A DNA stretch of 39,192 nt from Muribaculaceae bacterium (GTDB lineage Bacteria; Bacteroidota; Bacteroidia; Bacteroidales; Muribaculaceae), in NCBI GenBank assembly GCA_016290765.1, contig JAEEVE010000004.1, positions 1 to 39,192 on the forward strand, read 5' to 3'. Position numbers and translations under genes: made by a program. The notes beneath the pieces are model-generated. The model searched no databases, was not told where the DNA came from, and saw nothing but the letters and a program-made list of their open reading frames with translations. Below are positions 5,621 through 36,396 of this stretch, piece by piece (the first letter of the stretch is position 1; every line of letters starts with the position of its first letter).

Positions 5621-8600
5621 ATGAGACAAACAGTAAATCATGCAATCTGCCAGCGCGCAGCGCGGTCACTGTTGCTGCTGTTGCTCGCCCTGCTGCCATT
5701 GGCAGGCTGGGCGCAGATGGTGCGAGGCACCGTCACCGACCCTGCGGGCGAACCGCTCATCGGCGTGTCGGTCATCGTCAAGGGCAGCAATACGGGTGTG
5801 TCAACCGACATCGACGGCACCTATGCCATCGCGGCACGCAATGGACAGACGCTGGTATTCAGCTATGTGGGCATGACCACCCAGGAGGTGCGGGTGTCGG
5901 CTAGCAAGCACGACATCGTCATGCAAGAGAATGCCTTGAACCTCGATGATGTGGTCGTCGTGGGTTATGGCAAACAGAAAAAATCATCGATCACGGGTGC
6001 CGTCTCGGCCATCAAGGGTGACGAACTGCTAGTGACACCAGCGACTAACATTACCCAGATCTTGGGCGGCCGCGTAGCCGGTATCTCGTCGGTGCAGACC
6101 TCGGGTGAGCCTGGTCAGGACCAGGCGTCGCTGCGCATTCGTGGCTCGATCAACGCCGTGACCTATATCGTCGACGGCATTCCGCGCAGCATCAATGAGG
6201 TCGACCCCAACGACATCGAGAGCGTGTCGGTGCTCAAGGACGCTAGCGCAACGGCCGTCTACGGCCTCAAGTCGAGCGGCGGTGTCATTATTGTCACCAC
6301 CAAGAAGGGTTCGAAACAGTCGCCTACTATCACCTACGATGGACAGATTGGTGGGTCGTACAACGCCAACTTCCCCAAGTTTATGAACGCCAAGGAGTTT
6401 ATGAACTACTATAACATGGCCGACTTGATGGACCAGTTGGCACGTGGTGTCATCACCGACCGCAAGCAGTATGTGCCTCGCTATCCGCAGAGCATGATTG
6501 ACCGTGTGGCCACAGGCGAACTCCGAAACGAGGGCTATGATGATGTAAGCTACATCGACAAGGTCTTTGGCACGGGTACCAACACCAAGCACACCCTGTC
6601 GATGCAGGGCGGCAACGACCGTAGCACCTACTACGGCTCCATTGGCTATATGGGCCAGAAAGGCAACATCGACAACTTCACATACGATCGCTACTCGATG
6701 CGTCTCAACTTGGAGTCCAAGATTGGCAAGTACTGGACCCTGTCGATGGGCGCCAGCGGATTTGTCGCCGACACCAAGACACCGGGCTTTTTCTCGGGCG
6801 GCGCCGACAATGGCTGGTATGAGGTGGGCTACCTCTCCATCGCGCACCAGGCCATCGCCATGCATCCCTATCTTGCCGAGAAACACAATGGGCTGTACAC
6901 CGGCATCATCTCAGCCAACGGCAGCTCGCCCAACAGCCCCCTCGCCGCCATCTACGAGAGCGGCTACAAAAAGACCCATGCCATCAGCCTCAGCACCAAT
7001 GTCGCCCTGCGCTTTGACGTGCCATGGGTCGAGGGCTTGAGCGCCAAGTTTACGGGAGCCTATGACTACAGTAACTCGCGCAATAAGAACCTTGATGAGC
7101 CCTTTGAGGTGGCCAACTACAATGCCAGCCAGCGCACCTTCACCAACACCGTGGGTGCCAAGGGCACAAGCATTCGTGTGGGGCAGGGTATGAACAACTA
7201 TACCCAGCTGTTGGCCGACCTGCAACTCAACTATGACCGCACCTTTGGTGACCACACCCTAGGCTTGCTTGCCCTGATGGAGGTGCGCGACAACAAGAGC
7301 GACGGCATGAGCGCCTATGCCAAGGACTTGAACTTCACTGGCCTGCCCGAGTTGGACTATGGCACGATGGACGCCATTGGCGGCTGGAGCGACCACTCGC
7401 GTGTGGCTGGCTTTGTTTTCCGCGGGCAGTACAACTATGCCGACCGCTATTATGTCGAGTTCAGTGGCCGCTATGACGGCTCCTACAAGTTCTCGGGCAA
7501 CGTCAGCGGCAAGCGCTGGTCGTTCTTCCCCAGTGCCTCGGTGGCATGGCGCATCAGCAAGGAAAGCTTTATGCAGGGCACCAACGACTGGCTCAGCGAC
7601 CTCAAGCTGCGAGTCAGCTATGGTGTCACGGGCGATGACTCGGGCAGTGATGCCTACGCCTTCCTCAGTACCTATGCCTTTGGTAACAAGGTTGCTACCA
7701 ACGAGGCGCTGGTCAACTCGGTCTATTTGGCCTATATCGCCAACCCCGACCTCACCTGGCAGAAGACCAATTCGCTCAACTACGGCTTTGACGCTTCGTT
7801 GTGGGGCGGCAAGCTCGGCTTCGAGGTCGACGCCTTCTACAACTACACTCATGACATGCTCATGTCGATGGGCGGTGACTATCCTGCATCGATGGGCGGC
7901 TTCTATAAGACCTATGCCAACTATGGCAAGATGGATGCCAAGGGCATCGACGTGCTCGTGTCACATCGCAACCGTTTGACCCTAGGGGGCAAGCCTTTCA
8001 GCTATGGTATCACCGCTAATGTGTCGTGGGCCAAGAATCGCTGGTTGCGCTATCCCGACGCGCCCAACACCCCCGAGTGGGCCAAGGTGACGGGTACCAG
8101 TGTCAACGCCTTCTACGGCTGGGTGGCCGATGGTCTATACCGCTCGGAGGAGGAGATTGACCGTTCGGCATGGTTCGGCACGCGTCCCAATGTGGGCGAT
8201 ATCCGCTATGTCGACCTCAACGGTGACGGCAAGATTGACTATCAGGATCGTGGCCGCATCGGTCGTGACTCGCGTCCCGAGGTCACCTATGGCTTGGGCC
8301 TCAGTGCCGAGTGGAACGGATTTGACTTCAACGCGCAGTTTACTGGCGGCGCCAAGTTTGATGTTTCTATGACCGGTACCTACTATAACGGCAATGACGA
8401 CAACACCATATGGACGCAGACCTTCAAGGAGCAGGGCAACTCGCCGTTGTTCCTTGTTACCAATGCCTGGAACATTGACAATCCCAATGGCACCATGCCT
8501 CGACTCACCGCTGGCAACACAGGCCACGGTGGTGACAACGGATTGGCATCGACCTTCTGGTTCCGCAAGGGCGATTACATTCGCCTCAAGTCGTTGCAGC

Positions 8601-8791
8601 TGGGCTACACGCTGCCTCGAGCGCTCACCATGCGCATCGGCATCGAGAAAATTCGTCTCTATGCCCAGGGATGCAACCTGTTTACTATCGATGATCTGCC
8701 CGCAGGGTTCGATCCCGAGTCACCGCAGGTTAACAATGGTTATTACCCACAGCAGCGTACGCTCATGGGCGGTCTCACTATCACTTTCTAA
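5621..8791 (+). CDS. susC: SusC-like TonB-dependent outer membrane transporter
   Basis: Carboxypeptidase-D-like domain (GTVTDPAGEPLIGVSVIVKGSNTGVSTDIDGTYAI), TonB-box-like LDDVVVVGYGKQKKSSITGAVSAI, plug domain VYGLKSSGGVIIVTTKKG, C-terminal beta-barrel; followed immediately by SusD. Confidence 0.97.
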   Translation: MRQTVNHAICQRAARSLLLLLLALLPLAGWAQMVRGTVTDPAGEPLIGVSVIVKGSNTGVSTDIDGTYAIAARNGQTLVFSYVGMTTQEVRVSASKHDIVMQENALNLDDVVVVGYGKQKKSSITGAVSAIKGDELLVTPATNITQILGGRVAGISSVQTSGEPGQDQASLRIRGSINAVTYIVDGIPRSINEVDPNDIESVSVLKDASATAVYGLKSSGGVIIVTTKKGSKQSPTITYDGQIGGSYNANFPKFMNAKEFMNYYNMADLMDQLARGVITDRKQYVPRYPQSMIDRVATGELRNEGYDDVSYIDKVFGTGTNTKHTLSMQGGNDRSTYYGSIGYMGQKGNIDNFTYDRYSMRLNLESKIGKYWTLSMGASGFVADTKTPGFFSGGADNGWYEVGYLSIAHQAIAMHPYLAEKHNGLYTGIISANGSSPNSPLAAIYESGYKKTHAISLSTNVALRFDVPWVEGLSAKFTGAYDYSNSRNKNLDEPFEVANYNASQRTFTNTVGAKGTSIRVGQGMNNYTQLLADLQLNYDRTFGDHTLGLLALMEVRDNKSDGMSAYAKDLNFTGLPELDYGTMDAIGGWSDHSRVAGFVFRGQYNYADRYYVEFSGRYDGSYKFSGNVSGKRWSFFPSASVAWRISKESFMQGTNDWLSDLKLRVSYGVTGDDSGSDAYAFLSTYAFGNKVATNEALVNSVYLAYIANPDLTWQKTNSLNYGFDASLWGGKLGFEVDAFYNYTHDMLMSMGGDYPASMGGFYKTYANYGKMDAKGIDVLVSHRNRLTLGGKPFSYGITANVSWAKNRWLRYPDAPNTPEWAKVTGTSVNAFYGWVADGLYRSEEEIDRSAWFGTRPNVGDIRYVDLNGDGKIDYQDRGRIGRDSRPEVTYGLGLSAEWNGFDFNAQFTGGAKFDVSMTGTYYNGNDDNTIWTQTFKEQGNSPLFLVTNAWNIDNPNGTMPRLTAGNTGHGGDNGLASTFWFRKGDYIRLKSLQLGYTLPRALTMRIGIEKIRLYAQGCNLFTIDDLPAGFDPESPQVNNGYYPQQRTLMGGLTITF

Positions 8792-8803
8792 CACCGAACA
8801 GTC

Positions 8804-10465
8804 ATGAAAACAAGATATCTAGCAAAGGTGACCATCGCCTGGACGATGTTGGCACTTGTCTCGTGCAACAACTATCTGGATCTCGAGCCGACCAATTCGG
8901 TGAGCGACAAGCTCATCTGGACCAGCAAGGCCAACGCTCAATTGGTCGTCAACAATATGTATGAGGACGTTGCCTATCTGGGCAACTACAACACGGGTGA
9001 GTGCTTGGCAGGCATGACCGAGGCACTGACCGATGAGTTCAAGTATGGCGACATGACCTATAATTCGCTGTGCTATATCCCCAGCGAGTTTGCCTATGGT
9101 GGTGCGGCAACCCTCACCACCAGTTATGTGTCAACCTATCTGGGTAGCTGGTCGACGATGTACCGTTATATTGCCCGCGCGAACCAGAGCATCTCCAGCC
9201 TGCGCAAGTATGGCACGATGAGTGACGAAGACAGGGACGAGGTCGAGGCCGAGCTGCGCTTCTTCCGAGCATTCTACTATGCCGAGCTGGCCAAGAAGTA
9301 TCACAAGGTGGTGCTCTATGACGAGGATATGGACAAGTATAAGAAGGACACACCCCTCACCGACGAGCCCCAGGTTTATGAGTTTATCTATCAGGACTTG
9401 AAGTTTGCTGCCGAGCATCTGCCTGTGAGCCTCGCGCCCAATGGCCGTCTTACCAGTGGCGCAGCCTACGCCTTCATGTCGCGTGTGATGCTCTATGCCG
9501 AACGCTGGCAGGATGCGCAAGAAGCCGCCCTGCAGGTGATGCAGATGGGCTATGAGCTGCCTGACGACCTGGGTGCACCATTCACGCCAGGTGGCAAGGG
9601 AGCCATTTTGCAGTATTGCTACAACAAGGAGAGCGTGACTCACTCGTTTGACAACTACTACGCACCAGGTGGTGACAAGGAGTTGCAGAAGAACAGCATC
9701 GATGGTGGCTATGGAACGCCCACACAAGAGATGGTCGAGAGCTTTGAACTCAAGACGGGTGGAAAGCCCAACTGGGAGGCCTGGCATGATGCCGAGGGCG
9801 TAACGGGCACACCGCCCTACGAGCAACTGGAACCACGCTTTGCCTTCACCATCCTCTACAATGGTGCCACATGGAAGGGGCGCACCATCGAGCCCTATGT
9901 GGGCGGTGTGGACGGATATGCGCAGTGGAAGGTCGAGACCAAGCCCGCTGGACGATCGACCACGGGCTACTATCTGCGCAAACTCGTTGATGAAACCCAC
10001 GACTTCAGTGTCGACCAGCGTTGTACCAAGCCCTGGACGGCAATACGCTATGCCGAGGTGCTGCTCAACTATGCCGAGGCATGCTACCGTCTAGGCAAGA
10101 CCGAGCAAGCCCTGGGCGCACTCAATCAGGTACGTACGCGACCCGCTGTTGGGCTGCCACGACTCACAGGCCTGTCGGGCGAGGACCTCATGGCAGCTAT
10201 CCGTCAGGAGCGCAAGGTCGAGCTGGCCTACGAGGGACAGTACTATTGGGACATGCGCCGTTGGAAACTGGCCCAGAGCGCATTCAGCAACTATCGTGTG
10301 CACGGGTTCCGCATCGTGAAGAATGCCGACGAGACGTTCACTTACTATTATGTGGAGTGTGACACCGAGGACCGTCACTTCCCCGCCAAGATGTATACCA
10401 CTCCCTTGCCCGAGAGCGAATTGTCGAGCAACAAGAGTGTTGAACAATTCCCTGAGTGGAACTAA
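8804..10465 (+). CDS. susD: SusD-like surface glycan-binding lipoprotein (RagB/SusD)
   Basis: Lipobox ALVSCNNYLDLEPTNSV; C-terminal RYAEVLLNYAEACYRLGKTEQALGALNQVRTRPAVGLP and ERKVELAYEGQYYWDMRRWK. Confidence 0.96.
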   Translation: MKTRYLAKVTIAWTMLALVSCNNYLDLEPTNSVSDKLIWTSKANAQLVVNNMYEDVAYLGNYNTGECLAGMTEALTDEFKYGDMTYNSLCYIPSEFAYGGAATLTTSYVSTYLGSWSTMYRYIARANQSISSLRKYGTMSDEDRDEVEAELRFFRAFYYAELAKKYHKVVLYDEDMDKYKKDTPLTDEPQVYEFIYQDLKFAAEHLPVSLAPNGRLTSGAAYAFMSRVMLYAERWQDAQEAALQVMQMGYELPDDLGAPFTPGGKGAILQYCYNKESVTHSFDNYYAPGGDKELQKNSIDGGYGTPTQEMVESFELKTGGKPNWEAWHDAEGVTGTPPYEQLEPRFAFTILYNGATWKGRTIEPYVGGVDGYAQWKVETKPAGRSTTGYYLRKLVDETHDFSVDQRCTKPWTAIRYAEVLLNYAEACYRLGKTEQALGALNQVRTRPAVGLPRLTGLSGEDLMAAIRQERKVELAYEGQYYWDMRRWKLAQSAFSNYRVHGFRIVKNADETFTYYYVECDTEDRHFPAKMYTTPLPESELSSNKSVEQFPEWN

Positions 10466-10508: not shown

Positions 10509-12206
10509 ATGAAAAAAATTAGTTTATATCTCTCAGCGCTTGTGATGCTTGTCGTGACCAATGCTTGTCATGACCCAGAGTATGTGCTGCCCACCGCCGA
10601 CAGGCAGGGCATCACCAGCATCACGGCACTCTTCACAAAGGGCGAATATGCCGAGGTTGAGGCTGCCAAATTGGTGGTGGTCGACCCCGACCAGACCGAC
10701 TTTGTTATCCCCATCCCTTGGTATTATCCCGAGGACAGCGATAACCCCACCACCGAGGCCGACCTGAAGGCAATGCGCGTGAAGGTGGAATTGGACAACA
10801 ACTGTGTCATTTCGCCGGCAATTACCATTCTAGACCTCACGCAGACCAACTACTTCAACTTTACCGACCCACAGGGCGATAGTCGGAAGATATCTATCAG
10901 AGGTGAGCGAACGCACTCCAACAAGTGCGCTGTGCTGGCGTTTACGGTCAATGGCGACCTGGCTTGTATCGTTAACGAAGAGGAAAAGACTATCTCGATT
11001 CCTACCGCCGATGATCTGAGCGACGCTACATTTGAGGCGACACTGTCGCCCCACGCTACCATCAGCCCCGCGCCGGGCACACCCATGGACATGAACGATA
11101 AGCCCACCGTCACCGTCACTGCCGATGACGGAGTGACCAAAGCTACCTACACACTGCTCAAGCTCGTGCCCAACAAGGTGGACAATGGCATTCGTGCAGG
11201 CTCGGGTGTACTCAAGTTCGAAGCCGACTTGGCCCGTATGGCAGGCGTGACCGTTGCCGAAAGCATCCATCCCACGCTGGCTGCCATGGGCCGTTATGTG
11301 GTGGTCGACCTGGGCGATGGCTCAACGCCGTTCTACATCGACAAGAACACGGGCAGCAAGGTGGGCGAAATTACCCTGGGCAGCGCCGATGCCACGGGAT
11401 GTGTCTCGAGCGACGAGGCTGGCAACTTGCTCATCGCCAAGTTCTCGGAGAGTGGTACAACCTTTACCATCTGGAAGAGCGCAGGGGTGGACGAAACACC
11501 GGTCAAGTTACTCGACTATGACAACAACCTCAACCTCACGCTGGGTGACTACCTGCAGGTGGTAGGCGATGTCAATGGCGATGCCTACATCTTGGCTACA
11601 ACAGGTGGGCTTTATGCTCAGCACTTTGTGCGCTGGAAGGTGACAGGTGGTGTCGTCGGTGCGCCCGAGGTCATTGAAATCAATGGTGTGCTGCAGTGGA
11701 ATTTCCGCGACAACAACACCAAGGTGGTTCAACGCACCTTCAATCCTGCCGATGGCTATTTCATGGGACAGTATGCCGACGGCAACGACCCGTTCTACTT
11801 CATCGACGGCACAACCAATACCGTCGTTGGATCGCTAGGACCTGTGGCCGACGGAGCGTCATGGGGCAAGAAGAACGCCATTAGCGACAGCCGCGTCTTC
11901 AACGGCAACAGCTACACGGTGCTCTTCTCGATGGGCTACTGGCCCAACTGGGGCTTGCCAGGCATCTTGTATTTCTTCGACACGAGTTCTACGTCGTTCT
12001 TCAACGGCGCAGCCATCAACCAGGCTTCGGGACTGGTGGGAACGTTCGGCATGACCGACTACGAGTCCATCCCCTATGCTGGTGACTCGCGCTGTTGTGA
12101 CGTGGTGATGATGCCCTCCAAGGATGGTTATTACTTGGATGTCTACTATGTGAGCAATACTCACTTGAGTGTGGGCTGCATCGAGTTTGACTGTATTGAT
12201 AAGTAA
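10509..12206 (+). CDS. DUF5018-like, SusE-position surface lipoprotein with C-terminal propeller-like domain
   Basis: Lipobox VVTNACHDPEY; Ig-like N-terminal region; C-terminal ~330 aa is a paralog of the 13392..14681 protein. Confidence 0.75.
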   Translation: MKKISLYLSALVMLVVTNACHDPEYVLPTADRQGITSITALFTKGEYAEVEAAKLVVVDPDQTDFVIPIPWYYPEDSDNPTTEADLKAMRVKVELDNNCVISPAITILDLTQTNYFNFTDPQGDSRKISIRGERTHSNKCAVLAFTVNGDLACIVNEEEKTISIPTADDLSDATFEATLSPHATISPAPGTPMDMNDKPTVTVTADDGVTKATYTLLKLVPNKVDNGIRAGSGVLKFEADLARMAGVTVAESIHPTLAAMGRYVVVDLGDGSTPFYIDKNTGSKVGEITLGSADATGCVSSDEAGNLLIAKFSESGTTFTIWKSAGVDETPVKLLDYDNNLNLTLGDYLQVVGDVNGDAYILATTGGLYAQHFVRWKVTGGVVGAPEVIEINGVLQWNFRDNNTKVVQRTFNPADGYFMGQYADGNDPFYFIDGTTNTVVGSLGPVADGASWGKKNAISDSRVFNGNSYTVLFSMGYWPNWGLPGILYFFDTSSTSFFNGAAINQASGLVGTFGMTDYESIPYAGDSRCCDVVMMPSKDGYYLDVYYVSNTHLSVGCIEFDCIDK

Positions 12207-12268
12207 AACTATTCGGGTCAGGGAAGTCATTCCTTGAGTTCCCTGACCGATTACTAATAAAGTATAAT

Positions 12269-13285
12269 ATGATGAAATTCAATCGAATACTATTTGTTGC
12301 AGTCGCTCTGTTAGCACTCACTGCTTGTGGCGACGAGAACAAGGCTGTGCAATGGTGGGACTGGACAACTGCAGAACCTGAACCTGGGCCAGACCCCGTG
12401 ATCGAGGATGCCAATCCTGGGCTGATTAAACTAGGATGGGCCAATGTGGGCGATGAGTTTGGCGAACTGCCCAACTATATCAACGTCTACCGTGCTCCCG
12501 AGCAACTGAAAGGCAAGAAGGCGGTGGCTTATGTCGCTGTGGCCGATGTTAACAAAGTGGTGTTCTCGGTTCTAGGAGAGGCTACGGGTTATAACAAGCC
12601 CTCAGACTTCTATCAGGCCAAGAAGGCCGCGGTGATCATCAATGGAGGCTACTTCTGGGACGGAACATCGTTGAGCCTGATGTGGCGCGATGGTGAGCTG
12701 GTGAGCCCCGCCAATCAGGTGAGCAGTCCCGACTGGACCACCACGTTCTACTATCCTGTACATGGCTACTTCGGCAAACTCGCCGACGGCAACTTTGAGA
12801 CGGCATGGACCTATACGACCATTACTGCAACGGGTGCCAACGACAAGACCTACAGCTATCCCACGCAGTTTCCGCTGGAGGCGGGTAGGGTGCCTAGCGC
12901 AACCTTTCCTGAGGGCGGTAAGTTGATGGATTGCGTCACAGCCATTGGTGGTGGACCGGTGCTGCTGCGCGGTGGCGAGGTGTGTAACAACTGGCAAGAT
13001 GAGTACCTAGAAGATATCGGGGCCGACGGCAATGCACCACGCACCGCTATTGGTTATACGGGCACACGCCTCATATACTTCGTGTGCGAGGGACGCAACA
13101 TGACACCCGATGTGCCGGGTTACAGCACGCTTGAGGTGGCTAATATCCTTAAGGATATGGGCTGCACCCAGGCGCTTAACCTCGATGGCGGCGGTTCGAC
13201 GATCATGCTGGTCAACGGCAAACCTGTGATCAAACCCAGCGACGGCACCGAACGCAAGGTGGTTAGTGCCGTGTCGATGAATTAA
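12269..13285 (+). CDS. Phosphodiester glycosidase family (NAGPA-like, PF09992) lipoprotein
   Basis: Lipobox ALTACGDEN; family motifs AVIINGGYF, AIGGGPVLLRGGE, PRTAIGYTG, and LNLDGGGSTIMLVNGKPV near the C-terminus. Confidence 0.88.
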   Translation: MMKFNRILFVAVALLALTACGDENKAVQWWDWTTAEPEPGPDPVIEDANPGLIKLGWANVGDEFGELPNYINVYRAPEQLKGKKAVAYVAVADVNKVVFSVLGEATGYNKPSDFYQAKKAAVIINGGYFWDGTSLSLMWRDGELVSPANQVSSPDWTTTFYYPVHGYFGKLADGNFETAWTYTTITATGANDKTYSYPTQFPLEAGRVPSATFPEGGKLMDCVTAIGGGPVLLRGGEVCNNWQDEYLEDIGADGNAPRTAIGYTGTRLIYFVCEGRNMTPDVPGYSTLEVANILKDMGCTQALNLDGGGSTIMLVNGKPVIKPSDGTERKVVSAVSMN

Positions 13286-13287
13286 AT

Positions 13288-13320
13288 GTAGTCCCCCTAA
13301 CCCCCTAAAGGGGGGACTAC
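13288..13320. other. Strong intergenic hairpin (10-bp perfect stem, 13-nt loop)
   Basis: GTAGTCCCCC (13288-13297) / GGGGGACTAC (13311-13320), just after the NAGPA-like stop codon; no T-tract follows on the + strand. Confidence 0.7.
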
Positions 13321-13391
13321 TACTTAACTCCCTTTAACTACTTTAACTACTAAAATAACCCCATTTGTTTAACTACTAAATTTTTATTAAC

Positions 13392-14681
13392 ATGAAACTA
13401 AAAAGACTATTTATGGTAGGCGCAATCCTGGCAACGATGTTTGCCACGGCAAGCGCTTTGACAGGTGACGCTAATGACGACAATCAGGTCGACATCAGCG
13501 ATGTGAATGCAGTGATCAATATGATGCTGGGCAAGACCGAAATGGTGGCTAATTGCGACGTGAATGGTGACGGCGTGATTGACATCAGCGACGTGAACGC
13601 AGTCATCAACTTGATGCTGGGCAAGGGCGGTGACGAGATCATCGGCATCCGCGAGGGATCGGCAACGCAGCTGTTTGAAGTGGAACTGAAGAGCCTCTAT
13701 GAGGAACTGGATGCCAATGCCATCCATCCCACAGTGGCAGCTATGGGCGACTATGTCGTGGTTTGCTTGGGCGATGGCCGCACACCAGTCTATGTGAACA
13801 AAGCTACCGGCGAGAAGGTCGGCGAAATCGCACTGGGCGAGGCCGAGCCTACGGGCTGCGTGTCGAGCGATGAGAATGGCAACCTGGTGATTGCCAACTT
13901 TGCCGATGGACAAGGTGGAAACTTCTGCTTGTGGAAGACTGCTGATGTCACGGCTGAGCCTGTGAAGATTCTGGAGGCTCCCAACGCTTGGGGCATCACC
14001 CTGGGTGACTATGTGCAGGTGATTGGCAATCTCGACGAGGATGCTGTCATCGTGGCTACCTTCGGCGGTCTCTATGCACAGCACATCGCTCGCTGGATGG
14101 TGACCGGTGGCGTGGTCAATCCTGAGCCTCAGGTTGTTGAGGTTGGCGGCTCGAGCGTCCAGCAAATTTGGAGCCGTGACAATAACTTCAACGTGTCACA
14201 ACGCACTAGCGACCCCGCTGATGGTTACTTCATGGGTCAGTATGCAAGTGGAGTCGACAATTTCTACTTCATTGACGGCGCCACCAATCAAATCGCTGGT
14301 ACGTTGCTGCCTCCTCCAGGTGATATGTCGGGTTGGAAATATGCCAACTGCTACACTTGCACCTTCAACAAGGTCAACTACACTGTCCTCTTCTCCATAG
14401 GTTTCTGGCCCAACTGGGGTCTGCCTGGAGCATTGTACCTCTTCAACACCGACACGGTTGACTACTTTGATGGTGTCAATACTGTCGCCAATGCACCTGG
14501 ACTGGTGGCAACCTGCCTTGTGGGTGATGCCGACTTTGATGTGACACCTTATGCTGCTGATGGCCGTGTAGCCGATGTGAAGCTCACCCCGACCAAGGAT
14601 GGCAAGTATCTCGACCTGGTCTACACGAGCAACACGCACCTGATGGTGGGTTGTGTCGAGTTTGACTGCGTAGCACAATAA
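13392..14681 (+). CDS. Secreted protein: N-terminal dockerin-type repeats + propeller-like domain shared with 10509..12206
   Basis: Signal peptide, then GDANDDNQVDISDVNAVINMMLGK...CDVNGDGVIDISDVNAVINLMLGK; the remainder aligns with the C-terminus of the DUF5018-like lipoprotein (IHPT.AAMG.YVVV.LGDG.TP, GCVSSDE.GNL.IA, GGLYAQH..RW.VTGGVV). Confidence 0.82.
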   Translation: MKLKRLFMVGAILATMFATASALTGDANDDNQVDISDVNAVINMMLGKTEMVANCDVNGDGVIDISDVNAVINLMLGKGGDEIIGIREGSATQLFEVELKSLYEELDANAIHPTVAAMGDYVVVCLGDGRTPVYVNKATGEKVGEIALGEAEPTGCVSSDENGNLVIANFADGQGGNFCLWKTADVTAEPVKILEAPNAWGITLGDYVQVIGNLDEDAVIVATFGGLYAQHIARWMVTGGVVNPEPQVVEVGGSSVQQIWSRDNNFNVSQRTSDPADGYFMGQYASGVDNFYFIDGATNQIAGTLLPPPGDMSGWKYANCYTCTFNKVNYTVLFSIGFWPNWGLPGALYLFNTDTVDYFDGVNTVANAPGLVATCLVGDADFDVTPYAADGRVADVKLTPTKDGKYLDLVYTSNTHLMVGCVEFDCVAQ

Positions 14682-14694
14682 TTCTTTATAAGTC

Positions 14695-14978
14695 ATGGGA
14701 CTGCAGATTTTTCTGGATATTTAGATAATATAGACTTCGTTTCGGCAATTGAAATAAAAAACACCGTCTTTTATTTTGTGTTGCGCTCGGCTTGCACTAA
14801 ATTTAGATAATTTAGGCTGCGCCTCGGCAATAAAAATATAAAACACCGTCTTTTATTTTGTATTGCGCTCGGCTTGCACTAAATTTGGATAATTTAGGCT
14901 GCGCCTCGGCAATAAAAATAAAAAACACCGTCTTTTGTTTTGTATTGCGCTCGGCTTGCACTAAATTTGCAGTCCCAT
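14695..14978. repeat. 284-bp element: three 82-bp direct repeats bounded by imperfect terminal inverted repeats
   Basis: Anchor CTTGCACTAAATTT recurs at 14791, 14873 and 14955 (period 82). Ends ATGGGACTGCAGATTT (14695-14710) and AAATTTGCAGTCCCAT (14963-14978) are inverted repeats with one mismatch. Confidence 0.85.
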
Positions 14979-14994
14979 TTTTAAAAAAGTTCTG

Positions 14995-16368
14995 ATGAAA
15001 CAGTTCCGCTTTATCTTTTTCCTGATGGCAATGATGGCCGTCTGCACCGCCTGCGGTGGAGACGACCCCATTCCTACACCCGAACCTACTCCCGAACCAG
15101 GACCTACACCAACTGTTGCCGAGAAACCACGATATATGTGGATTGACGCTAGTGCCAACTTCCCTGTGTTTGCCGACCGCCGGGACAACATCCGCCGTGA
15201 CCTCACGCTGGCCTACCAGTCGGGCATCACAGATGTGGTGGTCGATGTGCGGCCTACCGAGGGCGATGTTCTCTTTAACTGCAGCGTCATACCCACGGTT
15301 ACCAAGTTGCCGTCGTGGAGTGGGGGGCGCTACCAGATGTATAACCGAGCGGCATCGTGGGACTACCTCCAGGCATTTATCGATATCGGACATGAAATCG
15401 GTCTCAAAGTCCATGCCGGTGTCAATATGATGGTCGGAGGGTGCCAGTATGCCTACGGGCTGGGTCAGCAGGGCGCAGTGTTCCGCGACGCCGACAAGCG
15501 TGACTGGGTCACAACGCTCAACACCAAGACGGGACTGGCCAACGAGATGGACCTGGATAGCTATGGCACGAAGTTCTTCAACCCGGCCCACGACGAGGTG
15601 CAGCGCTATCTGCTGACGATGTTGCGCGACCTGGCGCAGTACAACCTGGATGGAATCGTGCTGGACCGTTGCCGATATGACGAGTTCCTGAGCGACTTCA
15701 GCGATGTCTCGCGACAGAAGTTTGAGCAGTATCTGGGACACGAGGTCGACAACTGGCCTGCCAGTGTGATGGCACCGGGCATGGCTGTAACGCCAATTCC
15801 CAGCAATACACCCACTTATTTCAAGGATTGGCTGGCGTTCCGAGCTAAGGTAATCCATGACTTTATACTGCGAGCACGAGATGCTATCAAGGGAACGAAC
15901 AACAAGATTCAGTTTGCCGTCTATGTTGGAGCGTGGTATTCTACCTACTATGACATGGGTGTGAATTGGGCCAGTAGCAAGTATGACCCCTCGGTCGACT
16001 ATCCGCGATGGGCGAATGCTGACTACAAGAAGTATGGCTTCGCACAGAACCTGGATTTCCTGTTGTTGGGCGCATACGCCTCGGTAAGCAATATCTATGG
16101 TTCGGGCGAGTGGTCTTGCGAGGGCTTCTGCCGACAGGCAAAACCGCTATTGGCTGGTGATGTGAAGTTTGCCGCAGGACCCGATGTGGGCAATCCCACG
16201 GGGTGGCCCGAAGGAGGACAGTTTACCGCCGTGACGCAGTCGGTCGATGCTTGCATCAACAATGCCGACGGATACTTTATCTTCGACATGGTTCATGTGC
16301 GGCAGTTTGGCTATTGGGATGCCATCAAGCTGGGTGTGGACAAATACCTGAAAACACTTGATGATTAA
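14995..16368 (+). CDS. GHL10-like / alpha-amylase-like TIM-barrel lipoprotein
   Basis: Lipobox MAVCTACGGDDPIPTPEPTPEPGPTPT (Pro/Glu linker) then RYMWIDASANFPVFADRRDNIRRDLTLAYQSGITDVVVDVRPTEGDVLF and YNLDGIVLDRCRYDEFLSDFSD. Confidence 0.75.
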   Translation: MKQFRFIFFLMAMMAVCTACGGDDPIPTPEPTPEPGPTPTVAEKPRYMWIDASANFPVFADRRDNIRRDLTLAYQSGITDVVVDVRPTEGDVLFNCSVIPTVTKLPSWSGGRYQMYNRAASWDYLQAFIDIGHEIGLKVHAGVNMMVGGCQYAYGLGQQGAVFRDADKRDWVTTLNTKTGLANEMDLDSYGTKFFNPAHDEVQRYLLTMLRDLAQYNLDGIVLDRCRYDEFLSDFSDVSRQKFEQYLGHEVDNWPASVMAPGMAVTPIPSNTPTYFKDWLAFRAKVIHDFILRARDAIKGTNNKIQFAVYVGAWYSTYYDMGVNWASSKYDPSVDYPRWANADYKKYGFAQNLDFLLLGAYASVSNIYGSGEWSCEGFCRQAKPLLAGDVKFAAGPDVGNPTGWPEGGQFTAVTQSVDACINNADGYFIFDMVHVRQFGYWDAIKLGVDKYLKTLDD

Positions 16369-16381
16369 AACCATATAAACG

Positions 16382-17872
16382 ATGAAGCGGTTTGTTGTTA
16401 TATCGCTGCTCCTGGCTGTGGCTTCGTTCACGGCCAGGAGTTTGACTTGGGGAGATGTCAATCGAGATGGCGCGCTAGACATCAGCGACGTCAATGTCAT
16501 CATCAATGTGATGCTGGGCAAGAGTGGCAACATCAATGCCGATCTTACCCGCGATGGCAGGGTAGATGTGAGTGATGTAAATGCAGTAATCAATCTCTTG
16601 CTGGGCAAGCTGCCCACTCACAACGAGAAACCGCGATATATGTGGATTGACGCCAGTGCCAACTTCCCCGTCTTTGCCGACAGCCAGGAGAACATCCGCC
16701 GTGACCTGACTTTGGCTGGCAGGGCGGGCATTACCGATGTCGTGGTCGATGTGCGACCCACCGAGGGCGATGTGCTGTTCGATTGCAGCGTGATGGACAA
16801 GGTGACCAAACTGCCTTATTGGGATGGCCCTTATTACCGCATGTATAACCGCCAAGCCACGTGGGACTACCTGCAGGCATTCATCGACATCGGTCACGAC
16901 CTGGGGCTGCGTGTCCATGCAGGCATCAACACAATGGTGGGGGGATATGAGTATTACTATGGCATGGGTCGCCAGGGCATTGTGTTCCGCGACGAGAGCA
17001 AGCGCGACTGGGTCACCGTACTCAACACTAGCGACGGACTGGTCAATGCGATGGACTCGGAAGACCATCATGCCAAGTTCTTCAATCCAGCCAACCCCGA
17101 GGTGCAGCAATACTTGCTCACCATGCTAGCCGACCTAGCGCAGTATCCGTTGGACGGCATCGTGTTGGACCGTTGCCGCTATGACGAGTTCCTGAGCGAT
17201 TTCAGCGACGAGTCGCGCCAGCAGTTTGAGCAGTATCTAGGGCACTCGATCAGCAACTGGCCTGCCAGCGTCATGACACCTGGCATGGCTGTGTCGCCCA
17301 TCCCCTATTTCGCGCCCACTTATTTCAAGCAATGGATGGCATTCCGTGCCAAGGTGATTCATGACTTTGTCATCAAGGCACGCGACGTGGTTCATCAGCA
17401 AAACCCCAAGATTCAGTTTGCACTCTATGTGGGCGCATGGTACTCGACCTACTACGATGTGGGCGTGAACTGGGCGAGCAACAAGTATAACACTGCCAGT
17501 TATTATCCACGCTGGGCCAACAGCGACTATAAGAACTATGGCCTGGCGCAGGAGTTGGACTTCTTGCTGTTGGGTGCCTATGCCAGCACTGAGAGCATCT
17601 ATGGCACTGGCGAGTGGACTTGTGAGGGCTTCTGTCGACAAGCGCAGAATTTGCTGTGTGGCGATGTGGCGTTTGCGGGCGGTCCCGATGTGGGCAACCC
17701 CACGGGATGGCCCGATGGCGGGCAAGCAGCAGCAGTGACACAGACCATTGACGCTTGTATCAACCATGCCGACGGTTACTTTATCTTCGACATGGTTCAT
17801 GTGCGGCAGTTCAACTACTGGGACGCCATCAGGCAAGGCGTGGACAATTATCTAGACTCATTAGGCATTTGA
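16382..17872 (+). CDS. GHL10-like TIM-barrel protein with N-terminal dockerin-type repeats (paralog of 14995..16368)
   Basis: Signal peptide then GDVNRDGALDISDVNVIINVMLGK...ADLTRDGRVDVSDVNAVINLLLGK; catalytic region is a close paralog of the preceding gene from EKPRYMWIDASANFPVFAD onward. Confidence 0.8.
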   Translation: MKRFVVISLLLAVASFTARSLTWGDVNRDGALDISDVNVIINVMLGKSGNINADLTRDGRVDVSDVNAVINLLLGKLPTHNEKPRYMWIDASANFPVFADSQENIRRDLTLAGRAGITDVVVDVRPTEGDVLFDCSVMDKVTKLPYWDGPYYRMYNRQATWDYLQAFIDIGHDLGLRVHAGINTMVGGYEYYYGMGRQGIVFRDESKRDWVTVLNTSDGLVNAMDSEDHHAKFFNPANPEVQQYLLTMLADLAQYPLDGIVLDRCRYDEFLSDFSDESRQQFEQYLGHSISNWPASVMTPGMAVSPIPYFAPTYFKQWMAFRAKVIHDFVIKARDVVHQQNPKIQFALYVGAWYSTYYDVGVNWASNKYNTASYYPRWANSDYKNYGLAQELDFLLLGAYASTESIYGTGEWTCEGFCRQAQNLLCGDVAFAGGPDVGNPTGWPDGGQAAAVTQTIDACINHADGYFIFDMVHVRQFNYWDAIRQGVDNYLDSLGI

Positions 17873-17873
17873 T

Positions 17874-19331
17874 ATGAATCGTATCATCACAACATTATTG
17901 CTTTCATTCTGCATTGTGCATTCTGCATGGTGCATTGAAAAAGGGCTTGCCACACGCACGGTGACGGGTCAGGTGACGTGCGGACACCAGCCATTGTCGG
18001 GCGTGGCTGTGACCGATGGCTACAACATCGTGCACACCGACCAGCAAGGCCGCTATACACTCATCAGCCCAGTTCAGGCAAGGTTTGTTTATATTTCCAC
18101 ACCAGCTGGTTTTAAGCCACCCCTCGACCAGTCGACGATTCCCACATTTTATCAGCGGCTGGCCGATGATAAAATGACTTATGACTTCGGGTTGACACGC
18201 AACCCGCGTGATGACCACCATCACACACTCATCGTCCAGGCCGACGCGCAGGTGACCTCGGTGGGCGACCTGGATCAGTATGAGGCGATGCTCGATGACA
18301 TCCAGGCAACCGTGGCTGGGTTGGGCAACCGTGATGTATTGGGGCTGGATTGTGGTGACATCGTGGGCGACAGCCCTTGGCTGTTTCCCGAGTATATCAA
18401 ACGCGTTGCCAGGCTCAATCTGCCCGTATATCGCGTCATTGGCAATCACGACATGGACTATAACGGCCGTTCGCACGAGACGTCGCATCACACCTACGAG
18501 GACTACTTTGGCCCCGACCACTACAGTTTCAATCGAGGGCTGGTGCACTATGTGGTCATCAACGACAACTTCTACATTGGGCGAGAATACTTCTATATGG
18601 GCTATTGCGACGAGACCACCTTCAGATGGCTGGAGCAGGACTTGCGAGATGTGAAGCCAGGCAATTTGGTGGTAGTGGCGATGCACATACCTACACGGCT
18701 CACGCCACAGCAACAGCCATTTGCCTACCAGTATGGCCCTATTGCCGACCAAATGGTGAATGCAGCTGCATTTCATGAATTGCTCAAGCCCTATCGGGCG
18801 CATATTATCTCGGGGCACATGCACTATAACCTGAACATCGAACATGGCGACAGCCTATATGAGCACAACACTGCGGCAGCGTGTGGCACATGGTGGCGAT
18901 TGCCCGAGTGCCTTGACGGCGCGCCACGAGGATATGCCGTTTATGATTTCGATGGTGACCAGGTCACCTGGTACTACAAGGGTGCGGGATGCGACCGTGA
19001 CTATCAGCTCACGGCCTATCTGCCTGGTGAGGATGACGACCACCCCGACGATGTAGTGGCTAATGTGTGGAATTATGACAGCAAGTGGCGTATCGAGTTG
19101 CTTGAAAATGGCAAGGTGACGGCACAGATGCAGCAATTCACAGGGTATGACCCAAAGTCGCGCATCGACTGTGCCGACCGCAAGAAGGTGGTTTATGAGT
19201 GGATTTCACCCATGCCGACCACTCATCTGTTTCGTGCGTGTCCCAAGGATCGCAATGCCCGCCTGCAGGTGCGTACCACCGACCGTTTTGGGCGCGTCTA
19301 TATGACCGACGCTAAACACCTGGAGAGATGA
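17874..19331 (+). CDS. Calcineurin-like metallophosphoesterase with N-terminal beta domain
   Basis: GLDCGDIVGDSP, YRVIGNHDMDYNG, VVVAMHIPTR and HIISGHMHYN metallophosphoesterase motifs; N-terminal VTGQVTCGHQPLSGVAVTDGYNIVHTDQQGRYTL domain. Confidence 0.9.
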   Translation: MNRIITTLLLSFCIVHSAWCIEKGLATRTVTGQVTCGHQPLSGVAVTDGYNIVHTDQQGRYTLISPVQARFVYISTPAGFKPPLDQSTIPTFYQRLADDKMTYDFGLTRNPRDDHHHTLIVQADAQVTSVGDLDQYEAMLDDIQATVAGLGNRDVLGLDCGDIVGDSPWLFPEYIKRVARLNLPVYRVIGNHDMDYNGRSHETSHHTYEDYFGPDHYSFNRGLVHYVVINDNFYIGREYFYMGYCDETTFRWLEQDLRDVKPGNLVVVAMHIPTRLTPQQQPFAYQYGPIADQMVNAAAFHELLKPYRAHIISGHMHYNLNIEHGDSLYEHNTAAACGTWWRLPECLDGAPRGYAVYDFDGDQVTWYYKGAGCDRDYQLTAYLPGEDDDHPDDVVANVWNYDSKWRIELLENGKVTAQMQQFTGYDPKSRIDCADRKKVVYEWISPMPTTHLFRACPKDRNARLQVRTTDRFGRVYMTDAKHLER

Positions 19332-20734
19332 AACCATTGACCGAACGATCATTAGCCTTGGATGCCCTGAGAGGCTATGCCATCATCACCATGGTCCTGA
19401 GCGCGACTGTGGTAGGAGGCATCCTGCCCGGATGGATGTATCATTGTCAGGAACCACCACCCGCTCATGCCTACGATGCCACTATTGCCGGCGTGACCTG
19501 GGTTGACCTGGTGTTCCCTGCGTTCCTCTTCGCCATGGGGGCAGCATTGCCGTTCTCGCTGGGAAAGAAGCGTCAACGGGGTGCATCCATGCTCTCGCTA
19601 GTGGCGCAGGTTGTGTGGAGAGCAATCTTGCTTACTTATTTTGCCATCTTGGTGCAGCACTTCTATCCCTATGTCACCAGTGGTGGCCAGCAGTCGCCGC
19701 GACATTGGCTCATGGCACTGGCATGTTTTGCGGGGATGTTTGCCATGTTCACACGGCTGCCCAAGCGGTGGCCAGCATGGCTGCGGCACACCATCCAGCC
19801 AGCTGCGCTTTTGCTAGGACTGGTGGCGATGCTCTCGATGCATTATCCCGATGGCACTGGATTTGACCCACATCGCAGCAACATCATCCTCCTCATCATG
19901 GCCAATGTAGCCTTGTGGGGCTCATTACTCTATTTGTTTACCATGGGCCGCGAGCACCTACGATGGCTTCTCCTGCTCATGTTGGCGGCGTTGTTCTTGT
20001 CGTCGACTGTATCGGGCAGTTGGGTCCAGGCGGTACTCAAGTGGACACCTCTCGACTGGTTTTACCAGCCTTGGATGCTCAAGTATCTGCTGATTGTGAT
20101 ACCCGCGGCAAAGGCGGGTGAACTGATGTGCAGCATCCCACCAGCGCAGCGCTCAACCAGCAGGACAAATGTTTTTTCAACGATAGCAATCTTACTGGTG
20201 TGTCTGGCGTTGGTGTTAACCAATCTGACGCTACTCTACATGCGACAAGTGGTGCTCAATATGGCCGTTAGTGCTGCATTGTTGATGGTGGGATGGCTTG
20301 TGCTGCGGCGCGGACAAGGTTATGTGGTGTTGTGGAGACACTTATTTGGTTTGGCTGCTGCAATGTTGGTACTGGGACTGATTCTCGAGCCCTTTGAAGG
20401 AGGTATAAAGAAAGACCCGCCCTCGTTCAGTTACCTGCTGGTGATGGGAGCCCTGTCGTGTTTGCTGCTCATCGCCTTTAGTGTCATCTGTGATGCGTGG
20501 CGGTGTCACAGGGCGACGAAATTCTTGTACAGAGCAGGACAGAACCCGATGGTGGCTTATGTGGCGGGCGACCTCTGTGTGATTCCATTGTTGCAGTTGA
20601 CCCATATTTGGCCATTTTTTACTATTTTTGCAACCTCGTCCTGGTTGGGATTCCTGCAAGGCGTGATTCTCACCTCACTTGCTGTGTTGGTGACAATGTT
20701 GTTCACTCGCCTGGGATGCCTGTGGCGCACTTAA
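19328..20734 (+). CDS. nagX: DUF5009 / NagX-like (HGSNAT-like) multi-pass membrane protein
   Basis: ERSLALDALRGYAIITMVLSATVVGGILPGWMYHCQEPP...TWVDLVFPAFLFAMGAALPFSL typical of the family; start overlaps the upstream stop (ATGA). Confidence 0.82.
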   Translation: MKPLTERSLALDALRGYAIITMVLSATVVGGILPGWMYHCQEPPPAHAYDATIAGVTWVDLVFPAFLFAMGAALPFSLGKKRQRGASMLSLVAQVVWRAILLTYFAILVQHFYPYVTSGGQQSPRHWLMALACFAGMFAMFTRLPKRWPAWLRHTIQPAALLLGLVAMLSMHYPDGTGFDPHRSNIILLIMANVALWGSLLYLFTMGREHLRWLLLLMLAALFLSSTVSGSWVQAVLKWTPLDWFYQPWMLKYLLIVIPAAKAGELMCSIPPAQRSTSRTNVFSTIAILLVCLALVLTNLTLLYMRQVVLNMAVSAALLMVGWLVLRRGQGYVVLWRHLFGLAAAMLVLGLILEPFEGGIKKDPPSFSYLLVMGALSCLLLIAFSVICDAWRCHRATKFLYRAGQNPMVAYVAGDLCVIPLLQLTHIWPFFTIFATSSWLGFLQGVILTSLAVLVTMLFTRLGCLWRT

Positions 20735-20747
20735 AATAATTGGAACA

Positions 20748-23078
20748 ATGAAACGTAACATTACAGCCTTATTGCTTTTATTGTGCATTGTGTATGATGC
20801 ATTGTGCGTTGGGGTAGTGGCCGACTTTGAGGTGATACCCATGCCGCAGCAAGTAACCCGCATCCAGTGTGCTACACCCTTTGTCCTCGACGGCACAGTG
20901 GCCGTGGTGGCACCCGACGACCCTGTGATGCATCGCAATGCACAGTTCCTGTGCGACTATGTCAAGCAAAGCACGGGCATAGAGCTTTTAGGAATCAGGG
21001 GTCAGGGCGCTAGTGCGCCATCAGGAACAATCGTGCTGCTCTCCGACCTGAAGGACGACAACCCTGAGGCATACCGACTAAGCGTGACAGGCAATGAGGT
21101 GACCATTCGTGGCGCCTCACCAGCTGCTGTATTTCATGGCATCATGACGTTGCGCAAGGCGTTACCTGTAGGGCATTTCGACCAGGTGCAGTTGCCACAA
21201 GTCGAGGTCAGCGACGCACCGCGCTTTCCCTATCGTGCCGCCCATCTGGATGTGTGCCGACACTTCTGGACCATGGACGAGGTGAAGACTTTCATCGACA
21301 TGCTGGCCCTGCACAACATCAACAACTTCCATTGGCACCTGACCGATGACCAGGGCTGGCGCATTGAAATCAAGAAATATCCCCGACTCACCCAGGTGGG
21401 CGCCTGGCGTGACTCTACGGTCATCGGGCGCAACCCTGGCAAGTGGCAACACGAGCGCCACGGGGGATACTACACCCAGGATGAGGCACGTGAGATAGTG
21501 CGCTATGCTGCCGAGCGACACATCAATGTGGTGCCCGAAATAGAGATGCCGGGGCACACACAGGCCATTCTGGCCAGTTATCCCGAACTGGGCTGCACAG
21601 GGCAAGACTTCGGGGTGTGGACCTGCTGGGGCGTGACGCCCGAGGTGATTTGCCCAGGCAATGATGCTACGATGCAGCTCATCGAGGATGTGCTCAACGA
21701 GGTGATGGACATCTTTCCGTCACCAGTCATCTGCATTGGCGGCGACGAGTGCCCCAAGGATCGCTGGCGCGAGTGCCCCAAGTGTCAAGAACGAATACGC
21801 ACCGAGTGCATCAAGCCGAGGGGAAAATATACCGCCGAGGATCAGCTGCAGGGCTATGTCACGAGATTTGCCTGCAAGGTGGTGACCGACCGCGGACGTT
21901 CGCCTGAGGGTTGGGACGAAATCCTAGAGTGCGATGTGCCCGAGCAGGCTATTGTGATGTCGTGGCGCGGCGAGGCGGGAGCCATCGAGGGCGCGCGTCG
22001 AGGCAACCGCGTTGTCCAGGCGCCCAATACGCACATGTACTTTGACTTTTATCAGTCGCGTGACATGGCGGCCGAGCCCTTTGCTATCGGGGGATATATC
22101 CCTGTCGAGAAGGTCTATAGCTTTGACCCTGTGCCACAAGAACTCACGCCCGAGCAGGGAAAACTCATCATGGGGTGCCAGGCCAACCTGTGGACCGAGT
22201 ACATCACGACCTTTAGCTACGTGCAGTACATGGTACTGCCGCGCATGGCGGCGTTGGCCGAGGTGCAGTGGACACCGGTCGATCGCAAGGACTATCAGTC
22301 TTTCTTGCGTCGCATACCGCATCTGATGGAGTTATACAACCTGCTGGGATGGAACTATGCCCGTCACCTGTGTGGCGTGACCACGACCTATACGCCTGTA
22401 CCACAGCGCAAGGCACTCAAGATTGAGATGTCGTCGCTCCAGGGCAACGACATCCGCTACACACTTGACGGCAGTGAGCCCACCCAAGCTTCGAGCCAAT
22501 ATACACAGCCATTCTATATTACCGACAATGCGGTGTTGCGCTCGCGTACCATGGGCCCGCTGGGTTATCCTGAGCGCATCAACAATGACACTATCCGCGT
22601 GAACAAAGCAACGTTTTGTGACATCAAGCTCAACACGCAACCCAATGAGAATTACACCTTTGCTGGAGCACCAACACTGGTCGACGGGCTACATGGAGCC
22701 AACAGCTATCGCACAGGGCTGTGGCTGGGGTTCTGTGGGAATGACTTGGACGCAACGATCGACCTGGCCCGGAAGCAAAAGATCAGCGAGGTGGCGTTTA
22801 ATGCCGATGTGTTTCAATGCGACGGTGTGGTCGACGCTCGGGGCATCGAGGTCTATGTCTCGACCGATGGCGAGCGTTTCAAGCAAGTCATCGCGCAAGA
22901 CTATTCTGAGATCGTGCAGAGCGAGGAATTTGTCATCAAGCGCCACACGGCTCACTTCAAGCCCGTCAAGGCCCGTTATGTGCGCGTGGTCATCAAGAGC
23001 GAGAAATGCTTGCCCTCATGGCATGCTTTCGCAGCCAGTAACGGCTTCCTCTTCGTCGACGAAATCGAAGTGTATTAG
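20748..23078 (+). CDS. GH20 beta-N-acetylhexosaminidase with C-terminal chitobiase-C-like and F5/8-like domains
   Basis: NNFHWHLTDDQGWRIEIKKYPRLTQVGAWR, EIEMPGHTQA, ICIGGDECPKDRW (catalytic D-E), ANLWTEYI; C-terminal YTLDGSEPTQAS then discoidin-like region. Confidence 0.95.
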   Translation: MKRNITALLLLLCIVYDALCVGVVADFEVIPMPQQVTRIQCATPFVLDGTVAVVAPDDPVMHRNAQFLCDYVKQSTGIELLGIRGQGASAPSGTIVLLSDLKDDNPEAYRLSVTGNEVTIRGASPAAVFHGIMTLRKALPVGHFDQVQLPQVEVSDAPRFPYRAAHLDVCRHFWTMDEVKTFIDMLALHNINNFHWHLTDDQGWRIEIKKYPRLTQVGAWRDSTVIGRNPGKWQHERHGGYYTQDEAREIVRYAAERHINVVPEIEMPGHTQAILASYPELGCTGQDFGVWTCWGVTPEVICPGNDATMQLIEDVLNEVMDIFPSPVICIGGDECPKDRWRECPKCQERIRTECIKPRGKYTAEDQLQGYVTRFACKVVTDRGRSPEGWDEILECDVPEQAIVMSWRGEAGAIEGARRGNRVVQAPNTHMYFDFYQSRDMAAEPFAIGGYIPVEKVYSFDPVPQELTPEQGKLIMGCQANLWTEYITTFSYVQYMVLPRMAALAEVQWTPVDRKDYQSFLRRIPHLMELYNLLGWNYARHLCGVTTTYTPVPQRKALKIEMSSLQGNDIRYTLDGSEPTQASSQYTQPFYITDNAVLRSRTMGPLGYPERINNDTIRVNKATFCDIKLNTQPNENYTFAGAPTLVDGLHGANSYRTGLWLGFCGNDLDATIDLARKQKISEVAFNADVFQCDGVVDARGIEVYVSTDGERFKQVIAQDYSEIVQSEEFVIKRHTAHFKPVKARYVRVVIKSEKCLPSWHAFAASNGFLFVDEIEVY

Positions 23079-36250: not shown

Positions 36251-36301
36251 GCTTGTAATGATATTTGAGTTAGATATAAACAATTTTGCCAATTTTGGGT
36301 G

Positions 36302-36332
36302 CAAAATTAAATAAATTGGCTCAGATTGCCAA
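36302..36332 (-). promoter_or_regulatory. Promoter for 34154..36250: TTGG-N19-TAATTTTG
   Basis: TTGG (36332-36329) and TAATTTTG (36309-36302) on - strand, 19-nt spacer, matching the Bacteroidota TTG-N19-21-TAnnTTTG pattern. Confidence 0.6.
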
Positions 36333-36342
36333 GAGATTGTTA

Positions 36343-36396
36343 AAAAAAGTTGGTTGCACTTTTGTCTTTTTAGTTGCAAAAGGCAAAAGTGCAACC
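36343..36396 (-). terminator. Rho-independent terminator for 36411..38897
   Basis: 13-bp perfect stem GGTTGCACTTTTG (36352-36364) / CAAAAGTGCAACC (36384-36396), extended inward by CTTTT/AAAAG; - strand continues AACTTTTTTTAAC. Confidence 0.8.

Follow-up and report, generated by a model that had tools for sequence, protein, structure and literature searches.

The closest described counterparts of the system considered here are of four kinds. Clostridial cellulosomes, as in C. thermocellum, combine paired-repeat dockerins on secreted proteins with cohesin-fold domains, multi-cohesin proteins that carry a C-terminal dockerin, and separate cell-surface cohesin proteins with SLH domains. In Ruminococcus albus and R. 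bromii dockerins far outnumber cohesins, and for R. albus a single cohesin has been proposed to anchor dockerin proteins at the surface (Hungate1000 paper, PMC6118326). The polysaccharide utilization loci (PULs) of Bacteroidota encode surface lipoproteins such as SusD, SusE/F and surface glycosidases. Here we describe a 39,192-nucleotide stretch of DNA (contig JAEEVE010000004.1 of assembly GCA_016290765.1; the window) from a rumen Muribaculaceae bacterium, in which four open reading frames (ORFs) within one SusC/D locus, P0001 to P0004, form two pairs of paralogs, each with a lipid-anchored and a dockerin-bearing member.

As the fourth kind, earlier papers report dockerins in rumen Bacteroidota and in PULs (PMC7480376, PMC6071333, PMC5742341), one of them stating that their role is not defined (PMC7480376) and another citing a distinct group of cohesins from cow rumen (PMC5742341). 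Among papers on cohesins, dockerins and type IX secretion, one states that its Bacteroidetes genome has no cellulosomal components, and another gives a list of Bacteroidota dockerins with no link to the type IX secretion system (T9SS). The passages retrieved from the Bacteroidota dockerin literature searched, which excludes subscription papers, name neither a T9SS-linked cohesin receptor nor lipobox/dockerin paralogue pairs. For years the dockerins of Bacteroidota have been tallied with neither role nor partner assigned to them.

Results

Two paralog pairs that differ in their anchor

The first-pass annotation, made from the sequence alone, described two unrelated families that each occur as a lipoprotein and as a dockerin-bearing paralog, and these pairs are real. 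All four ORFs are found where it placed them. In the first pair, P0001 (10509..12206, + strand) is a DUF5018 lipoprotein (PF16410, 354.9 bits; signal confirmed as VVTNAC/HDPEY), while P0002 (13392..14681, +; PF00404, PF16410) joins a type I signal and an N-terminal dockerin to the C-terminal DUF5018 beta-propeller. The shared region, residues 227-563 of P0001 and 85-427 of P0002, is 55% identical over 345 aa. In the second pair, P0003 (14995..16368, +) is a GHL10/DUF4985 lipoprotein (PF02638, PF16373; signal confirmed as VCTAC/GGDDP) with a Pro/Glu linker, and P0004 (16382..17872, +; PF00404, PF02638, PF16373) carries a type I signal and an N-terminal dockerin instead; these two are 75% identical over 420 aa, and the sharp restart of homology that had been noted lies at EKPRYMWIDASANFPVFAD in both. 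The Dockerin_1 domain stands directly behind the type I (Sec) signal in P0002 and P0004 and is over the curated PF00404 cut-off of 22.9 bits in each, with protein-level scores of 33.6 and 29.1 bits; in the genome search the dockerin of pair 1 (13464..13616, +), which has two DxNxDGxVDISDVN-type repeats, scores 38.6 bits and that of pair 2 (16451..16603, +) 32.6 bits.

That the two families are unrelated is borne out by a fold search, which assigns the first to the beta-propellers, and by Pfam, which assigns the second to GHL10/DUF4985. The modelled DUF5018 C-terminal region is a beta-propeller whose closest solved structure in the fold search is a Bacteroides DUF4623 protein, with the surface lipoproteins BtuG and XusB among the others. 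Only the propeller part of the AlphaFold2 (AF2) model of P0002 was used; its dockerin is modelled with low confidence because few sequences cover that region. A search of solved structures with P0004 as query gave a match confined to the dockerin region, and with P0001 only a weak match.

Both pairs, lipoprotein and dockerin copies alike, recur in the same order in the four nearest loci (L162-L165), which come from rumen Muribaculaceae metagenome-assembled genomes (MAGs) and MAGs labelled Porphyromonadaceae/Bacteroidales. With that of the window this makes five genomes, and since the same two pairs stand in the same order in four further records they are not a chance occurrence. A dockerin copy was found in none of the examined stretches of 10 more distant loci, from Muribaculaceae, Bacteroidaceae, Prevotella, Pedobacter and Chitinophagaceae. 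A tree built on the catalytic part of GHL10 places the five dockerin copies in a group of their own (100/99), with the group of the five lipoprotein copies (97/96) as its sister, and therefore a single duplication preceded the split of these species and was followed by a swap of the anchor. The tree covers GHL10 only, the evolution of the DUF5018 pair being read from its pattern of presence alone. In another Muribaculaceae genome (L172, 6181-9060) a best match to the GHL10 copy lies in the C-terminal portion of a 960-aa ORF, the N-terminal region of which is similar to that of adjacent DUF5018-propeller proteins.

A genome-wide dockerin set of one species-specific type

The two pairs are a small part of the dockerin complement of this MAG (2.87 Mb, 83.5% complete, 5% contamination), in which a genome-wide PF00404 search finds about 100 dockerin ORFs. 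By position, 70 of the 102 dockerins lie at the extreme C-terminus, where the protein ends a few residues past the second repeat, 10 lie close to the N-terminus, in most cases immediately after the signal, and 19 are internal. Among the dockerin ORFs whose N-terminus is visible, 76 of 81 receive a Sec signal call (an earlier caller gave 79), which contradicts the alternative, raised in the first-pass annotation, of a generic EF-hand on intracellular proteins. The cargo includes BspA-type leucine-rich repeat (LRR) proteins, C10 and M6 peptidases, FGE-sulfatase-like proteins, GH13 with CBM26, GH53, CotH and F5/8 proteins; among the first 25 of 57 families the commonest are LRR, C10 peptidases and FGE-sulfatase-like proteins, with some GH13/CBM26 and GH53. 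The dockerin cargo is not dominated by cellulases.

The same abundance marks the genus. In a sample of 150 genomes of the family, all 10 of the same genus have at least 40 dockerin matches each, and outside it one genome (G296) has at least 33, the remainder 0-9. The single-contig genome G495 of the same genus has 36 dockerins over cut-off, and in G415 the dockerin-cohesin profile is matched 138 times, almost always in its dockerin part, with two cohesins.

Conservation per repeat across 68 dockerins shows D1, D5 and D12 to be near-invariant in both calcium loops, with N, T or D at position 3; N14, N18, G22 and K23, which are not calcium ligands, are likewise near-invariant in the two repeats. 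A dual-mode binder would be expected to show such two-fold symmetric conservation. Within a genome the dockerins are of a nearly uniform type, which differs across species, with DVNAVIN.MLGK in the window, DVTALINxILG in G415 and G495 and DVT.IYNYLLNG in G353 and G428, and scaffoldin-like proteins carry the cargo type of their own species. This uniformity fits a shared, species-specific partner. Separate dockerin types for cargo and scaffoldin, in the type I/II fashion of C. thermocellum, were considered and set aside, the same species type being present on both. Three small contigs of the window's genome (G000; contigs C134, C251 and C50, loci L009, L010 and L013) carry dockerins of the type of another species; they may be binning contaminants and were left out as support, and the dockerin type may itself serve as a marker of such contamination.

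Dockerin, lipobox and type IX-like tail largely exclude one another

Among the 76 exported dockerin ORFs a lipobox is called in 3, each of them doubtful when inspected by eye, whereas among the other exported ORFs on the same contigs it is called in 69 of 223 (p=3e-7). The lipobox rule used recognises the VTNAC and VCTAC of the window lipoproteins, and a stricter first rule led to the same conclusion. A T9SS-like tail was found on 30 ORFs, and among the approximately 94 dockerin ORFs only two bear one, both of which also contain a cohesin. Moreover, several homologues of C-terminal-dockerin proteins that lack a dockerin have a T9SS-like tail at their end instead. Because the mutual exclusion is nearly complete and such tail-bearing homologues exist, the dockerin, the lipobox and the T9SS tail look interchangeable as anchors.

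Cohesin-fold domains on proteins with type IX-like tails

The first-pass annotation had supposed a receptor for the dockerins without naming one. The Pfam cohesin model PF00963 exceeds its cut-off of 24.1 bits in two relatives (L109 and L112, 47.4 and 45.7 bits) and detects cohesins in part of the order (92 of 296 genomes), some genomes of the family included, but none in the window's genome; a profile built from 21 cohesin-like domains of the family (A1) gives four matches there, among them those on contigs C88 (E=9.5e-23) and C120 (E=6.9e-20), and matches in 60 of 61 genomes of the same genus. These matches overturn a reading of dockerins without cohesins drawn from the PF00963 search alone. 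In the order-wide search many PF00963 cohesins were seen in other Bacteroidales families (for example G198, contig C35, and G094, contigs C2 and C23), some of them on very long ORFs of 5,000-8,000 aa.

The best PDB sequence matches of profile A1 are the cellulosomal cohesins 5n5p, 6kgc and 6kg8 (E about 3e-8 to 5e-8). The dockerin-cohesin-tail segment of the C88 protein is modelled by AF2 at a pLDDT of 89.5, and Foldseek ranks 1-23 are all cohesins (TM by target about 0.6-0.8 for the single-domain matches); the domain thus has the cohesin beta-sandwich fold. Two main architectures are seen. In the first a signal peptide is followed by cohesins and a dockerin, with one, two, three or six cohesins in relatives; in the second a cohesin is followed by a T9SS-like tail, often as LRR-dockerin-cohesin-tail in a BspA-LRR protein. 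A dockerin stands at the end of 22 of the cohesin proteins, none of which has a tail, and most of the others finish with a T9SS-like tail. Members of the two classes are often encoded next to each other, and G415, G495 and G452 have two LRR-dockerin-cohesin-tail genes side by side. In the window's genome C120 holds one complete copy and, at the contig end, a 173-aa start of a second, while C88 holds an LRR-dockerin-cohesin-tail copy whose beginning is missing; as these two pieces, aligned with the homologues, complement each other, the same gene pair is plausible here. A multi-cohesin scaffoldin was not found by profile A1 in the assembled 83.5% of this genome.

Across the 150 genomes of the family, matches to the cohesin profile and dockerins tend to occur together (32/7/24/87, p=3e-11), and they do so outside the genus as well (p=1e-7), in a test that ignores phylogeny. 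The window's genome also encodes a T9SS sortase (PorU, NF033707, 928 bits), with two further copies over cut-off; in G000 a PorU-type sortase and another two long homologues, arranged in tandem, lie on contigs C89 and C165. The presumed tails end in G[VI]YIV..K.V, and the C88 model shows a seven-strand C-terminal domain (CTD).

Other features of the locus

The pairs lie downstream of a tandem susC/susD and alongside glycan-active genes, as in a PUL (Pfam). The SusC-like TonB-dependent transporter (5621..8791, +; CarbopepD_reg_2 and Plug) is followed by a SusD-like lipoprotein (8804..10465, +; SusD_RagB, signal peptidase II (SPII) call). Between P0001 and P0002 lies an NAGPA phosphodiester glycosidase (12269..13285, +; PF09992, 89 bits), a lipoprotein by its LTAC/GDE and an SPII call. 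Behind the pairs a metallophosphoesterase, DUF5009 and GH20 (17874..23078, +; Pfam) keep their order in L162-L165, and other locus products are DUF4434, a GlcNAc-epimerase-like protein and a sugar transporter. Our guess at the substrate would be an amino-sugar or phospho-linked glycan. Two neighbouring dockerin proteins on the - strand, at 34154..36394, where an internal ATG is probably the real start, and 36411..38897, have internal dockerins (34673-34828 and 36927-37082) between F5/8 type C domains that are DUF5000-like.

Discussion

The dockerin probably acts as a calcium-dependent, non-covalent surface anchor onto cohesins displayed by the T9SS, with the dockerin copies of the two pairs as a second, outer-lying set. 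It would substitute for a lipobox at the N-terminus or for a T9SS sorting tail at the C-terminus, and would dock on the cohesin of BspA-LRR proteins of the form LRR-dockerin-cohesin-CTD, which would themselves be exported by the type IX route and attached to the outer membrane by the sortase. Through the old duplication each of two functions, a ligand-binding protein of the beta-propeller fold and a glycosidase-like GHL10 enzyme, gained a second copy, in which a dockerin replaced the lipid anchor; the lipid-anchored copy would then reside in the membrane beside SusC/D and the dockerin copy farther out on a cohesin network, which in some related species would include multi-cohesin scaffoldin-like proteins. 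The first-pass annotation had proposed two parallel sets, one anchored directly and the other assembling on a receptor or released. The receptor part of that proposal gains from a candidate receptor class present both in this genome and in its genus, proteins that combine cohesin domains with T9SS-type tails, and from the alternation of dockerin, lipobox and tail. Its suggestion of a cellulosome-like assembly finds a counterpart in the multi-cohesin proteins of relatives; because no such scaffoldin was found in the assembled part of the genome, a cellulosome suits this species less well than simple surface anchoring of the kind proposed for R. albus.

The differences from the known systems are as marked as the likenesses. 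Unlike the clostridial cellulosome, the host is Gram-negative, T9SS-type tails stand in place of SLH domains, the dockerin alternates with a lipobox, a single dockerin type is found on both cargo and scaffoldin-like proteins, cohesin and dockerin are predicted rather than known to bind, and the cargo, in place of cellulases, consists mainly of proteases and of LRR, FGE-sulfatase-like and amylase proteins. The excess of dockerins over cohesins, as in G415, resembles R. albus and R. bromii, from which the Bacteroidota host, the T9SS-type tails and the N-terminal dockerins in place of lipoboxes set it apart. The layout of the locus and its lipid-anchored copies are those of Bacteroidota PULs, and it is the second, dockerin-bearing copy of two components that distinguishes it from them.

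Several points weigh against surface anchoring through cohesins. PF00963 is blank in the window's genome, and G296 (genus g187), for all its dockerins, has no cohesin by the family profile, which may point to another partner or to an incomplete genome. The presumed T9SS tails match TIGR04183 and PF18962 weakly, below or near cut-off (TIGR04183 15.8 bits against 23), and signal peptides and tails were called by home-made scripts and not by trained predictors. The homogenised dockerins could be explained by gene conversion or module shuffling instead of a common partner. Lastly, the cargo has neither lipobox nor T9SS tail to account for a crossing of the outer membrane.

This last point has been given two further readings. 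The cohesin-CTD proteins may carry dockerin cargo with Sec signals, binding it in the periplasm and passing with it through the type IX route, one T9SS signal thereby serving many proteins; we hold this to be quite unlikely, though if true it would constitute a new protein export route of Bacteroidota with dockerins as adaptor tags. More broadly, the dockerin could be a sorting signal itself, or its cargo could pass the T9SS bound to a cohesin-CTD partner, with export as the main role and anchoring secondary. The sortase and its two further copies, the extreme C-terminal position of 70 of the 102 dockerins, as is usual for T9SS tails, and the want of a recognised outer-membrane export signal on the cargo are in keeping with such a role, but the 10 N-terminal and 19 internal dockerins are unlike T9SS tails and piggyback export is conjectural, and we take such a role to be rather improbable.

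A different account dispenses with cohesin binding in trans, taking the dockerin to be a calcium-stabilised structural or linker module, or one folded onto a neighbouring domain, and the dockerin copies to be soluble in the periplasm or released. The internal dockerins, some of them linker-like between F5/8 domains, the cargo devoid of both other anchors, and the dockerin that directly precedes the cohesin in the anchor proteins, where contact within the same chain is possible, would all agree with it. Yet a structural module would hardly be expected to conserve N14, N18, G22 and K23 with two-fold symmetry outside the calcium ligands, to co-occur with cohesins, to be of a species-specific yet genome-wide type, or to be swapped for true anchors at either end of a protein, and we regard this account as unlikely. 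That promiscuous shuffling of dockerins produced the copies by accident, with no selection for a second location in this locus, is very improbable: the genus is indeed very rich in dockerins, on many families, but both copies and their gene order are retained in five genomes, and the catalytic parts are still 75% identical.

The likely partner of Bacteroidota dockerins has long been missed, partly because the Pfam cohesin model is blind to it in such genomes. A candidate receptor, together with natural lipobox/dockerin paralogue pairs, makes the question of its role directly testable with one enzyme on two anchors, and raises that of the route by which proteins lacking both a lipobox and a T9SS tail would arrive at the surface. 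If anchoring through cohesins is correct, Gram-negative gut bacteria would possess a surface-display system that combines the docking of dockerins on cohesins with type IX secretion and would serve roughly 40 to over 100 proteins in one genus.

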